Virus record (IMG/VR): IMGVR_UViG_3300031256_000002 | Span: 1-49,298 of that record | Strand: one strand, 5' to 3' | DNA length: 49,298 nucleotides | Source: a virus | Part shown: positions 18,988 to 49,011 of the stretch, in pieces | Layout of the letters: each line of letters begins with the position of its first letter | Numbering within the stretch: the first letter of the stretch is position 1 | The notes under the pieces: generated by a model | Told to the model about the DNA's origin: nothing | What the model saw: the letters and a program-made list of their open reading frames with translations, nothing else | Database searches by the model: none | Made by a program: the position numbers and the translations under genes

Positions 18988-19929
18988 ATGACATTATCGG
19001 AAATTAGAAACTCAATTTGGGATGCTCTTGGCAAGCCAACAGATCTTGATCCAGCTACGGACGTTCAATACATCGGTGGTCCTTTGTTGAACTTTATAGT
19101 CAACGAGGGTCAAAGACAAATTGCGTTTTGGAAAGATCCTGTAAAACAAACTATGGTGCGTATTCATAGTCTTACCGGAAGCTTGAACTATTCTTCGTCG
19201 GTTGTTGCCGGAGTCGTCGCAGCTGTCAATAACGCAGTTCCTCCGTACTCAGTAACTATAACTGGTTTAGGAATTGAAGACGACAGATACAACGATTGGC
19301 TTATAGTGATTAACAACGAAGCTAGATATGTTGTTGATTTCGTTGGTGCTACTGGGGTCTGTTATATCAATGAAGCTTTTTCTACTGCTCCTGAAGCTGA
19401 TGATATTGTTGCGTTGTATAAAAACTTTGATCTGCTTTTACCTTCAACTCATGCTTGGGTTACAGATCATATCGAGCTTCCGGTTACAACCGATATTTAT
19501 CGTGCTGATGGAAATCTTTTTGAAGTTCTTTCGGTTGTTAATTTAACTAATGGTTCTGAACTAAGTAGGTCTGATCAGATTGAAAAGTTTTCCGGGACTT
19601 TGATGAACTACGGGGATCCTGCGTCGTGGAATCTTTATGGAAACAAAATTATTTACAACCAAGCTGTAGATTCGACTATTTGGCTGAAACTTGAATATTA
19701 TCGCTATCCGATGGCTATGACTTTAGCTGACGATGTTCCTGAGATTCCGGAAGTTTATCACTATGGTATTGTGCTATGGGGTATTTGGCATGGTTTGATT
19801 AGAACTCGTGAAGCTTCTATGTCACAGTTAGCTTGGAATAATTTGGTTGCTTTTATGCGATCTACTTACGCGCAGAGTAGTATTGGTAGAAACAGAACAT
19901 CCTCACATGGAGTTATAAAATACAGTTAA
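18988..19929 (+). CDS. head-to-tail adaptor or tail-tube-like connector
   Basis: 313 residues, AAAGGAG upstream. The start MTLSEIRNSIWDALG followed by LLNFIVNEGQRQIAFW is a common opening of phage adaptor proteins that join the portal to the tail. The middle is beta-rich, the end has YHYGIVLWGIWHGLI and a final helix. Size and location between head and fibre genes agree. Not certain whether it is the adaptor ring or a nozzle component. Confidence 0.6.
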   Translation: MTLSEIRNSIWDALGKPTDLDPATDVQYIGGPLLNFIVNEGQRQIAFWKDPVKQTMVRIHSLTGSLNYSSSVVAGVVAAVNNAVPPYSVTITGLGIEDDRYNDWLIVINNEARYVVDFVGATGVCYINEAFSTAPEADDIVALYKNFDLLLPSTHAWVTDHIELPVTTDIYRADGNLFEVLSVVNLTNGSELSRSDQIEKFSGTLMNYGDPASWNLYGNKIIYNQAVDSTIWLKLEYYRYPMAMTLADDVPEIPEVYHYGIVLWGIWHGLIRTREASMSQLAWNNLVAFMRSTYAQSSIGRNRTSSHGVIKYS

Positions 19930-38826: not shown

Positions 38827-39023
38827 TATTTAATCTCCTTTGATAATTCATGACTTTCTGGAATAATAGAATACCATCTAACTTCCAATAATGGTATATG
38901 TCTATTTTGACCGTTTGTTAATCTCATCCACAAAAGAGATTTCCCAAATCTAACTTCATTACATTCAAAACTTTCCATGTACCCATCAAACCATCTTACA
39001 TTTACATTTATTTCTTTCTTCAT
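38826..39023 (-). CDS. small hypothetical protein
   Basis: 65 residues between the polymerase and the 103-residue gene, one-base overlaps at both ends. NVNVRWFDGYMESFECNEVR recalls small beta proteins. It ends HELSKEIK, like its downstream neighbour. Function unknown. Confidence 0.6.
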   Translation of the reverse strand: MKKEINVNVRWFDGYMESFECNEVRFGKSLLWMRLTNGQNRHIPLLEVRWYSIIPESHELSKEIK

Positions 39024-41692
39024 TATTTTATCTCCTTTAATTCACCGAAGCTAAACCCGCAAGAAATATCTACAGGAAAAGAAACCATCTGTCCGTAGAT
39101 GTCTACAGGTTTTTCCATTTCAGTTTTGATAAGTTTAATCAAATCGGTTTTCTCGTCAGGCCAGGCTTCAAACAAAAGCTGATCGTAGATTTGTAAAATC
39201 ATCTGTGACTTGCATCCCCATTTTTCCATTGCGTCTTCAATACGTATCATAGCACGGTTGATAACATGCGCAATGAGTCCTTGAATTGGAGTATTGATCG
39301 CTTGTTTTTTTATGTCAGCATCAGAACCGTATAAGGTTCTAACAAATCCCATAGGTGTTGAGGTTTTACGCTCGGTTAAAGCAATACGCTGCTGTTCGTC
39401 AATCCACGCACGTTGAATCGGATGGGCCTTGAAATACGCAGTATTGATTGCGGTGAAATCCGACAAGGTCATCTTGATATCCGGACATTCGATCAGGATC
39501 TTTTCAAAAATCTCCCTGTCCGAACCACCATACTGTATGCAACCAAACTGGTACGTTTTCATTACCGCACGTTTTTGATCCCAATCCGGATCATCGGGAG
39601 TAATACCAAAAACAGCTTTGGTGTTGATGTCATGGATGTTCAGGTTCTTTTCGACAACTTCAATTAACATAGGATCTTTGGTGACATACGCTAGGGCAAT
39701 GAACTCTGCGTTTTTGTAGTCTGCCGAAACAAACTCAAACCCAGGTTCCGGAACAAATGCATCACGTAAAGACTTATCACGTTTTTTCGGCAGTGTTCCC
39801 AAGTTTGGTTTTGAAAACGCTGGCCGACCAGTAGTAGTGCCGATTAAGTTTATACTGCAATGAATCCGGCCATCACGACGGATCCATGAACTCAGTCCGG
39901 AATAATTTGAAATCAACGTGGCGATTCTGGTATGTTCAGTATACAAACTCAACCAAGCAAGTACAGAATTTATCTGCTTAATTTCGGTTTGGAACGTTGT
40001 GTTGTTTTTGTTTTTCAATTGCGCTATAGTTTTGAGTCGTTTGTTTAGATGATTTCGGTATGACATCAGATTTTGTTCATCAGTCTTTTGGTCTTTGGTT
40101 GTTTTTGTTTTACGTCCCTTAAATCCGTGTGGAATATATAACGGTTTGGTCTGTGATACTTTCACTTGTTCGATTAAATCTTGATGACACTTTGCTTTGA
40201 ATGCTTTTAAAGCTTGTTTAGGTTTGTTTGCTTTGTTGAGTTCAGCGATTTTCAATTCTCTAGCACGAAGCTTTGCTTTTGCAGTTACAAACTTCGATTC
40301 TTCAGAAGCAAACAAAAACAATCTAAGATCCGCAGCAGAAGCAAAGTTGAAACCGGCCGGGAGGTTACCAGTAGATCGTAATTTGATTTCAAGTTCATCT
40401 AAAATAGTTTGTTTTTTAGCAACCCACGCTCGGAGCTTCTTTTTGTCCAGTCTAATCCCACGTAACATCATGCGCACAAAAGGTTTAATGACTTTCAATC
40501 GTTCGTTATAATATAAATCTTCTAAACCAAGTTCTTTCAGATCTTCAAGTAAAGCTGGCAAAGCACGGAACAAAATCGTACAGTCGTCAAGGTTGTATGT
40601 GCGTAATTCCTCATCCGAAAGATTTATTGTAGAAACTTTTTTGTTCTTTAACGTACCCTTGTGATATGCGACATCCGCACATGTCGAGCCAATAAAACCT
40701 AAATTATGCGGGAGTTCCGGATTGATGACGTGGTGCAAAATCATTATATCGTGCATGATGTTGTCAAAATTCACCGAAATCCCTCGGTTTTCCAGTACAA
40801 ATGTATCAAATGCAGCATTTTGAAACAACAATGGATGTGTTGTAAGCAGATGTGAAAGTTTGTCTTTCGTTGATTGCAAGTTATCACCAAGCACATCGAC
40901 TCCGTATTGAGACAAAAACGGCACACAAGCAGCATTATATGTGTTGTTTGCAAGACCTGTACATATTATATCTGCTGTTGACTGATCAAAACCTCCACTA
41001 CCTTTGTTTGTTGTTTCAATGTCTACAGCTAACGGTGATCCATGTGGGAATAAACCAAGCACGTCCGGATTGTTTGTGATCTGATACTGTTTTTTTGGAT
41101 ACACTTCACGACCGCCATCAGAGATACGTTTGATTTTGGCTCCGTCGGCAGCCCAAACCGCGAACGTTTGTGGGTTGTGCTGGTTGTAACCCAAATACGA
41201 CGGATGAAATGTAGGAATCACAACCAACTTTAAACCATGTCCGGAGTAATCGTATACACTACCACGGGTTTGTAAGATCCCATCAGAGTCCGGAAAAAAT
41301 ACCTTCAACGCAGTATCACCGAGCACTGCTATGGTTTTGCATTGTGCTGTAACGTATGTAAGTTCTTCCCAAAAACCATCAGAGCAACATTGCATTGCTG
41401 TTTGTGCGTCACAGGATAGCAAGTCGTTTGCTTTCCGACGAGTATCCGGAGGTTTACAACCGAGCACGTTCATGACATAGCATTGATGTCGAGCAATTCC
41501 AGATTGTGCAAGCCAAACGTTCAAGAACTTCCCGGCCATGCCAACAAACGGACGACCTTCCAAAGCTTCTGATCGTCCCGGAGCTTCGCCAACAAGCACG
41601 ATCTTGGGATTTTCTGGACCCTCGCCAGCCACACGGCGGGAAGTACATAACGGACAGGTAGAGCATTTCGATTTCTTACGGGTATATCTCAT
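39023..41692 (-). CDS. fusion of uracil-DNA glycosylase and family A DNA polymerase
   Basis: 889 residues, ATG overlapping the upstream stop. Residues 28-185: family 4-like uracil-DNA glycosylase with VGEAPGRSE (35-42), GRPFVGMAGKFLN, MNVLGCKPP and HPSYL; Cys10, 13 and 16 plus later Cys could hold a 4Fe-4S cluster. Residues 220-385: 3'-5' exonuclease with DIETT, QNAAFD and YNLDD. Residues 390-889: polymerase with motif A DYKNAE (Asp658), motif B KTYQFGCIQYG, and motif C IYDQ (Asp837) instead of VHDE. This is the replicative polymerase; the glycosylase part probably screens for uracil. Confidence 0.85.
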   Translation of the reverse strand: MRYTRKKSKCSTCPLCTSRRVAGEGPENPKIVLVGEAPGRSEALEGRPFVGMAGKFLNVWLAQSGIARHQCYVMNVLGCKPPDTRRKANDLLSCDAQTAMQCCSDGFWEELTYVTAQCKTIAVLGDTALKVFFPDSDGILQTRGSVYDYSGHGLKLVVIPTFHPSYLGYNQHNPQTFAVWAADGAKIKRISDGGREVYPKKQYQITNNPDVLGLFPHGSPLAVDIETTNKGSGGFDQSTADIICTGLANNTYNAACVPFLSQYGVDVLGDNLQSTKDKLSHLLTTHPLLFQNAAFDTFVLENRGISVNFDNIMHDIMILHHVINPELPHNLGFIGSTCADVAYHKGTLKNKKVSTINLSDEELRTYNLDDCTILFRALPALLEDLKELGLEDLYYNERLKVIKPFVRMMLRGIRLDKKKLRAWVAKKQTILDELEIKLRSTGNLPAGFNFASAADLRLFLFASEESKFVTAKAKLRARELKIAELNKANKPKQALKAFKAKCHQDLIEQVKVSQTKPLYIPHGFKGRKTKTTKDQKTDEQNLMSYRNHLNKRLKTIAQLKNKNNTTFQTEIKQINSVLAWLSLYTEHTRIATLISNYSGLSSWIRRDGRIHCSINLIGTTTGRPAFSKPNLGTLPKKRDKSLRDAFVPEPGFEFVSADYKNAEFIALAYVTKDPMLIEVVEKNLNIHDINTKAVFGITPDDPDWDQKRAVMKTYQFGCIQYGGSDREIFEKILIECPDIKMTLSDFTAINTAYFKAHPIQRAWIDEQQRIALTERKTSTPMGFVRTLYGSDADIKKQAINTPIQGLIAHVINRAMIRIEDAMEKWGCKSQMILQIYDQLLFEAWPDEKTDLIKLIKTEMEKPVDIYGQMVSFPVDISCGFSFGELKEIK

Positions 41693-48589: not shown

Positions 48590-48720
48590 GAACCCAGTCA
48601 GGGGTGTAAAATAAAACATCTTAAGGAGAAACTTTAGAAGCTTTTCCCTGACCAGGTCGAGAGAAGAGGCAAGCAACGCTATGCCTCGACTCATCTCAAG
48701 AGTAAAACAAAAAGTCAAAC
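48590..48720 (-). other. structured intergenic segment after the tRNA-like genes
   Basis: In the leftward transcript GAGGCA/TGCCTC makes a six-pair stem (48665-48686), and GTCAGGG pairs with CCCTGAC (48599-48605 with 48644-48650). A U-tract does not follow directly. It may be a processing region between the tRNAs and the next messenger; no reading frame of note. Confidence 0.4.
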
Positions 48721-48724
48721 AACT

Positions 48725-48933
48725 TGGGGATAGCAGGATTTGAACCTGCAAGGTGTTGGTCGGGTTGTCCCTTGCCGTCATAAGTCTCGTTATCATCACG
48801 AACAACTTAGCGGGCGACTCACCACAGCCATTACAAACTGTCTAATGCCGAATTCAGGTACGGTTTCAAGCCGTCCTGGTCATTGGTTTGATCCAACTAT
48901 CGACAATGCGTTTACCAATTTCGCCATATCCCC
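48725..48933 (-). tRNA. tRNA-Leu-like gene with a large insertion in the anticodon region
   Basis: Ends pair perfectly (GGGGATA with TATCCCC, then A73). TGGCGAAATTGGTAAACGC is a Leu-type D arm, and GCAGG TTCAAAT CCTGC a normal T arm. Between them lie 157 nt instead of about 32. TTGTC and GACAA could be the anticodon stem, with CAAGG before GACAA giving a Leu CAA anticodon if the interior is removed, but U33 is not accounted for. An 8-pair hairpin (CAGG-ACGG, loop CTTGAAA) lies within. CCA is not encoded. Confidence 0.6.
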
Positions 48934-48940
48934 ATAAAAT

Positions 48941-49011
48941 GGCAAGTGACCGGATTTGAACCGGCGCTTCCCGAATCACCATCAGAGCTCTACCGCTGAG
49001 CTACACTTGCC
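48941..49011 (-). tRNA. tRNA-His-like gene (GTG), unusual anticodon arm
   Basis: An eight-pair acceptor GGCAAGTG/CACTTGCC, with the extra G(-1):C73 pair of tRNA-His, TA at 8-9, D stem GCTC/GAGC with loop AGCGGTA, and T arm GCCGG TTCAAAT CCGGT. The stem TCTGA/TCGGG encloses TGGTGAT, giving anticodon GTG, but position 33 is G instead of U and one base is missing around 26-27. Possibly decaying or specialised. CCA is not encoded. Confidence 0.6.

Follow-up and report, generated by a model that had tools for sequence, protein, structure and literature searches.

Is a tRNA-Leu gene with a long insertion in its anticodon region an interrupted tRNA, a broken one or a different RNA built on a tRNA frame? 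This question is raised by the window, by which we mean the whole stretch of DNA analysed here, a 49.3-kb head-tail virus record (49,298 nt) that carries near its end, on the minus strand (48725-48933, RNA position 1 being 48933), an RNA gene with a tRNA-Leu-type frame. On that strand the gene reads GGGGATA-TG-GCG-AAATTGGTAAA-CGC-[158 nt]-GCAGG-TTCAAAT-CCTGC-TATCCCC-A; its acceptor, D and T arms are all perfect, U8, U48 and A73 are present, and the anticodon and variable arms are the exceptions (Table 1). The distance from D stem to T stem is 158 nt, about 125 nt of it extra, as compared with 28-40 nt in the normal phage tRNA-Leu genes of our comparison set. This agrees with the original prediction, which had described a tRNA-Leu-like gene with about 125 additional nucleotides and good acceptor, D and T arms. 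The D arm is of the bacterial or phage tRNA-Leu type and, judged from the sequence, chance does not explain a D-arm consensus, a T arm and a 7-bp acceptor that all stand where they should.

The fold of the whole RNA is more stable than those of its dinucleotide shuffles (z of -2.6 and -3.1), and so is that of the insert by itself (Table 1). A long-range helix that resembles a variable arm stops 2 nt short of the T stem; its 4 contiguous base pairs lie within the range of the shuffles, and GUCG/CGAC extends it. The crossing-helix score of the gene gave p 0.45 against shuffles, and UUGUC/GACAA is a plausible crossing partner in the insert. Y32-U33 is absent, G32-A33 following UUGUC, and the gene lacks the 7-nt anticodon loop with U33 of a functional decoding tRNA-Leu. 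Both hairpins reported earlier, with loops CTTGAAA and GATGATA, are present. The former's likeness to the anticodon loop of Ser-UGA and the run TGA-TGA-TAA in the latter look incidental, because no relative sharing either was found.

Table 1. Positions of the features discussed, in window coordinates or, for family X, by locus.
Feature	Position	Strand	Evidence
tRNA-His(GUG), directly upstream of the Leu-framed gene, 6-nt gap	48940..49011	-	ARAGORN and Rfam
Acceptor stem, 5' strand GGGGAUA	48927..48933	-	sequence; 7/7 pairs with 48726-48732
D arm GCG-AAAUUGGUAAA-CGC, Leu type; A14, A15, G18G19	48908..48924	-	sequence; fits tRNA-Leu D-arm search pattern
158-nt body replacing anticodon and variable arms	48750..48907	-	sequence; own fold z -2.1
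UUGUC, positions 27-31, candidate anticodon-stem 5' strand; then G32 A33	48902..48906	-	sequence; 5 Watson-Crick pairs with GACAA 48765-48769
Hairpin GUUGG-AUCAAA-CCAAU	48882..48897	-	RNA folding
Strong hairpin CAGGACGG-CUUGAAA-CCGUACCUG	48855..48878	-	RNA folding
GGUG-A-GUCG, partner of CGAC-CAA-CACC just 5' of T arm	48815..48823	-	folding pairs GGUG/CACC and GUC/GAC
Hairpin UCGU-GAUGAUA-ACGA; loop over UGA-UGA-UAA	48787..48801	-	sequence and folding
GACAA, candidate anticodon-stem 3' strand	48765..48769	-	sequence; inference
CGACCAACACC, 3' strand of GGUG-A-GUCG helix, then UU (U48)	48752..48762	-	RNA folding
T arm GCAGG-UUCAAAU-CCUGC	48733..48749	-	sequence
Acceptor stem, 3' strand UAUCCCC	48726..48732	-	sequence
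Discriminator A73; CCA not encoded	48725..48725	-	sequence
Family X members	L158:6893-7050, L173, L195, L320, L620, L622, L627, L628, L631-L634, L641		
Family X members, further	L645, L650, L652, L653, L655; diverged L110:3343-3493, L276:770-920		

With default settings, ARAGORN and the Rfam tRNA model called only the adjoining tRNA-His in the window and missed the Leu-framed gene. With introns allowed, ARAGORN reported it as 'tRNA-Ile(tat)' or 'tRNA-Thr(agt)', varying with the setting, and these two different calls therefore do not fix its anticodon. The tRNA-His and the Leu-framed gene are probably on one transcript; in the former, G33 replaces U33 and the anticodon stem is weak, so this tRNA-His may not decode normally. 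The closest relative of the terminase and DNA polymerase of the contig is vir526 (34% identity), which is assigned to Methanomicrobiales, and five more IMG/VR relatives stand at about 33%; on sequence grounds, a methanogenic archaeal host is plausible. None of these six nearest virus relatives contained a tRNA, a tRNA-Leu frame or a Leu D arm when searched, indicating that the element is not common to the known relatives; nor was there among them a relative with an ordinary tRNA, which the original prediction had named as a refutation. Searches for DNA relatives of the gene itself gave only short tRNA-arm matches in phages and none in viral contigs.

The same architecture recurs elsewhere. We searched 2.9 million viral contigs with the pattern GGCGNAATTGGTANACGC ... 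GGTTCRANTCC at gaps of 145-175, 64-94 and 95-120, a pattern that itself imposes the D-arm and T-arm consensus of the class; for each of the three gaps, the counts are those among the matches listed. The class was defined by a 7-bp acceptor, a Leu D arm and a T arm around a 50-180 nt body without an inner T arm, and the acceptor and inner-arm requirements exclude D and T arms paired by chance across tandem tRNAs. Among the matches listed, 139 Leu-framed genes with such bodies came from viral contigs. The 64-94 gap gave at least 120 matches; 84 of the 103 distinct ones listed had a perfect 7-bp acceptor, which is not in the pattern, and 96 of the 103 a full T stem. At gaps of 145-175 most raw matches were tandem tRNAs (17 of 91 lacked an inner T arm, among the matches listed), so the class is rarer at the size of the window gene. 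Applied to 84,980 bacterial and archaeal genomes, this pattern matched 70 times, and tandem tRNAs accounted for many of the matches. Additionally, a generic D-arm control over the whole collection gave 97 matches, 27 of the 84 distinct ones being real, so Leu is a common frame and not the sole one.

When the 139 disrupted genes (among the matches listed) were set against 69 normal tRNA-Leu genes taken from the contigs that carry them, it became apparent which parts of the tRNA are kept. U48 was found in 98% of the disrupted genes (100% of the normal ones) and A73 in 82% (100%), whereas U33 dropped to 31%, the random level (88% in normal genes), and Y32 to 37% (93%). The class thus retains the elbow and the LeuRS identity and loses decoding. 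An anticodon-stem partner was present in 22 of the 139 disrupted genes listed, with 7.3 expected by chance. Furthermore, helices scoring at least 6 occurred in 38% of class bodies and 13% of shuffles, and 38 of 59 such helices stopped precisely 2 nt short of the T stem, the site at which the variable arm of a normal tRNA-Leu ends, with their other strand far upstream. Crossing helices were also enriched (32% vs 13% of shuffles at a score of at least 11). The window gene has the acceptor, D arm, T arm and body that define the class, and it likewise keeps A73 and U48 and does not keep Y32-U33.

The class is large and mostly unannotated in phages. Among isolated phages, Bacteroides phage BS-TP2 carries, at about 19550-19660 of its record, an unannotated gene that has a 57-nt body with GAGTA(1)-GAGCTTT(2)-TACTC(1')-AAAGCTC(2') just 5' of the T arm, and Lactobacillus phage Lenus and Brochothrix phage BtpYZU01 have such genes, also unannotated, with the T loop TGCAAAT. 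We found no description of this phage class in the open-access literature, an absence that is no proof. In the clustering of 1399 neighbouring ORFs from 188 loci, no widely common neighbour emerged except Ro60 in a cyanobacterial family. Two phage tRNA arrays, L367 (a 170-kb contig) and L383, contain four or five tRNA-framed non-decoding genes amid normal tRNAs. One tRNA-Leu-framed RNA is common to three phyla (L447, L463 and L467, from Terriglobia, Chlorobiaceae and Desulfobulbus), and its compensatory changes (AGGG/CCCT to AGTG/CACT, GGCCGT/ACGGCC to GGCAGT/ACTGCC) imply a pseudoknot. At L105:3276, L282:119 and L275:4435, a tRNA-Leu with a normal anticodon stem and variable arm has 30-60 extra nucleotides in or before the anticodon loop, and these members may contain introns or duplicated arms.

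Two kinds of module were recognised in other class members. In one subset the anticodon loop holds the Ro60-binding motif CUUGYCY..RGNCCGA, found 28 times against 0.2 expected by shuffling. The cyanobacterial genes with this motif adjoin a Ro60 gene (vWA_Ro60 E 7.8e-36, TROVE 2.7e-18), and the phages L535 and L560 carry the motif and encode a Ro60 protein. This subset consists of Y RNAs, which are an established type of tRNA mimic (PMC8394870, PMC7790460). Arrays of tRNA-framed Y RNAs adjoining Ro60 genes were observed at the cyanobacterial loci L450, L458, L459, L471, L475, L478, L486 and L488. The other module, which we call family X, is a pseudoknotted phage RNA with a core of about 150 nt containing GTAAGACAAGT-NNNN-TAAATA and NNNN-ACTAACA (Table 1). 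Its covariation score was 0.63 against 0.19 when shuffled, and its five helices, one of them crossing, had 86.7% paired cells (63% shuffled) and 133 double changes (39 shuffled). The crossing helix was paired in 18 of 18 sequences; of the five pairs in this helix, the search pattern had fixed two, G-C and U-A. Family X had no match in Rfam and, with its strong covariation, is a new RNA family. About half of its members lie inside a tRNA-Leu frame and the rest in plain closing stems or in a frame with a changed T loop, showing that frame and module are separable.

The window gene could also be read as a tRNA-Leu with a small intron of unknown type that is excised to leave a normal tRNA. In this regard, UUGUC (27-31) has partners in GACAA and GGCAA, pairing with GACAA would give a variable region of 15 nt, the normal tRNA-Leu size, and ARAGORN models a 116-nt anticodon-loop intron; moreover, joining the loop ends CTT..AAAA of L105 and L282 could yield a Leu-UAA loop, and these two genes may therefore contain very small introns. 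However, the loop of the window gene begins with G32-A33 and has no U33, which is at random level class-wide, and the 15-nt variable region is unable to form a hairpin by itself and base-pairs with part of the insert. In addition, neither a group I model match nor a convincing bulge-helix-bulge motif was found, and we regard such an intron as unlikely. As to group I introns, the Rfam model RF00028 gave no match on the window and none at the Leu-framed genes of 17 records, and inspection by hand showed a P3-like pairing, no P8 and only a 3-bp P7; the group I intron of tRNA-Leu(UAA) is likewise an anticodon-loop insertion, whereas the window gene has only about 125 extra nucleotides and no P7/P8 core. 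The cyanobacterial 'group I introns' of 22-49 nt are also anticodon-loop insertions, and the window gene lacks their published motif, C-T-T-G-x-C-T ... A-A-G (PMC5733544); those introns are themselves probably Y RNAs, because this motif resembles the Ro-binding motif beside Ro60. An archaeal bulge-helix-bulge intron of a methanogen virus, cut by the host endonuclease EndA, was a serious candidate because of the possible archaeal host, to which the vir526 matches of polymerase and terminase point, and archaeal tRNAs are known to contain introns of 11-129 nt (PMC4090602). Nevertheless, when hBHBh' was sought in both orientations, the candidates were all weak and rich in wobble pairs, none with strong helices where an anticodon loop would be restored, and the gene lacks the 3-nt bulge, 4-bp helix and 3-nt bulge of such splice sites; with a D arm of bacterial Leu type and a host that is only a candidate, this origin appears very improbable. 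A box C/D guide within an archaeal intron was also considered and rejected, a single GTGATGA being present without the ordered C-D'-C'-D set.

Decay or recombination that left junk sequence separating two tRNA halves, or an assembly error, would account for an insert without relatives, for the position of the gene near the contig end and for the unusual G33 of the adjoining tRNA-His. It would not account for three perfect arms, the retention of A73 and U48, a fold better than shuffles and an architecture recurring in more than 100 contigs with selected acceptors, and we consider it improbable. Least probable of all is a diverged Y RNA of the bacterial type with a host Ro60 as its partner: it would share its scaffold principle with the Ro-motif members beside TROVE genes, but the insert lacks CUUGNCY..RGNCCGA and the contig has no Ro60/TROVE gene. 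Membership in family X was rejected as well, since the covariance model R2 reached a best score of 0 bits on the window even with filters off, although family X is of similar size and about half of it sits in the same frame. A tmRNA proper was not supported by ARAGORN -m or Rfam, and the gene has no tmRNA signature or tag reading frame. Among the options of the original prediction, a tRNA-based RNA is the best supported, as the class keeps the elbow and A73 and not U33 or Y32, while an intron or a broken gene fits the class badly.

We therefore think it probable that the window gene, as a member of a large class of such phage genes, encodes a non-decoding, tRNA-shaped RNA and not an intron-bearing tRNA, with a Leu frame for processing and perhaps leucylation and a module of about 120 nt as effector or decoy. 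Given its frame, A73 and U48, the lack of U33, and the absence of Ro motif, Ro60, family X core and any relative of the insert (none among 295 sampled bodies), we assign it to the Leu-framed class with an orphan module; as the insert has no sequence relative, it offers no covariation test and we infer the function of the RNA. Transcription, maturation and leucylation of the window RNA, and a partner for its module, are predictions. With its tRNA frame, the RNA would be a substrate for RNase P, 3' processing, CCA addition and the T-loop enzymes, and would thereby be protected or stabilised. The laboratory 'tRNA scaffold', with an insert at the anticodon position, protects RNA likewise. Only a few tRNA identities, leucine among them, are served by a synthetase that takes no account of the anticodon. 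For charging, E. coli LeuRS depends on A73, A15-U48 pairing and G18G19; it dispenses with anticodon and variable arm and accepts truncated tRNA-Leu (PMC9976931). By sequence, the window gene has these identity elements. Leucylation of the frame by the host LeuRS would be likely in a bacterium and less certain in an archaeon, because the archaeal enzyme makes use of the variable arm (PMC9976931). The structured module that replaces the anticodon loop would do the work by binding a partner. Alternatively, the RNA would be a decoy bound without effect by host defences that cut tRNA, a role already put forward for YrlA as a competitive inhibitor of anticodon nuclease (PMC7790460).

A non-decoding RNA of this kind has several known counterparts. 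YrlA (RF02553) and the tRNA-framed Y RNAs beside cyanobacterial Ro60 combine, like the window gene, mimicry of D, T and acceptor arms with an RNA module, theirs being protein-binding. The two ends of YrlA make up its Ro-binding stem (PMC8394870), whereas those of the window RNA form an acceptor. tmRNA has an aminoacylatable tRNA frame without a decoding anticodon and a synthetase that ignores the anticodon, Ala in its case and, as predicted, Leu in that of the window gene, which differs as described above. Stable RNA C (species 1) of phage T4 is also a phage stable RNA with a T arm adjoining a tRNA cluster, but it lacks a Leu-type D arm and a perfect tRNA acceptor.

tRNA cleavage is a common antiviral weapon. 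That phages widely exchange structured modules (Y RNAs, family X and many others, that of the window gene included) on a non-decoding, leucine-chargeable tRNA frame, forming a general class of stable effectors or decoys that annotation misses or labels as tRNA pseudogenes, is a broader proposal that we hold tentatively, as quite possible though somewhat short of probable. If true, a wide set of phage RNAs with elbow and A73 and without an anticodon loop would form a new layer of phage RNA biology, in the form of decoys, amino-acid donors or protein-binding scaffolds. Some sequences now taken for tRNA pseudogenes or small tRNA introns may likewise be something different. Elsewhere in the window, 39023-41692 encodes a family A DNA polymerase (Pfam DNA_pol_A 3.2e-51) that carries a uracil-DNA-glycosylase domain at its N terminus (Pfam UDG 2.6e-26). 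Lastly, downstream of the Leu-framed gene, the non-coding stretch 48590-48670 contains an inverted repeat, CCTGGTCAGGG/CCCTGACTGGG, together with another hairpin, and is perhaps another structured RNA.
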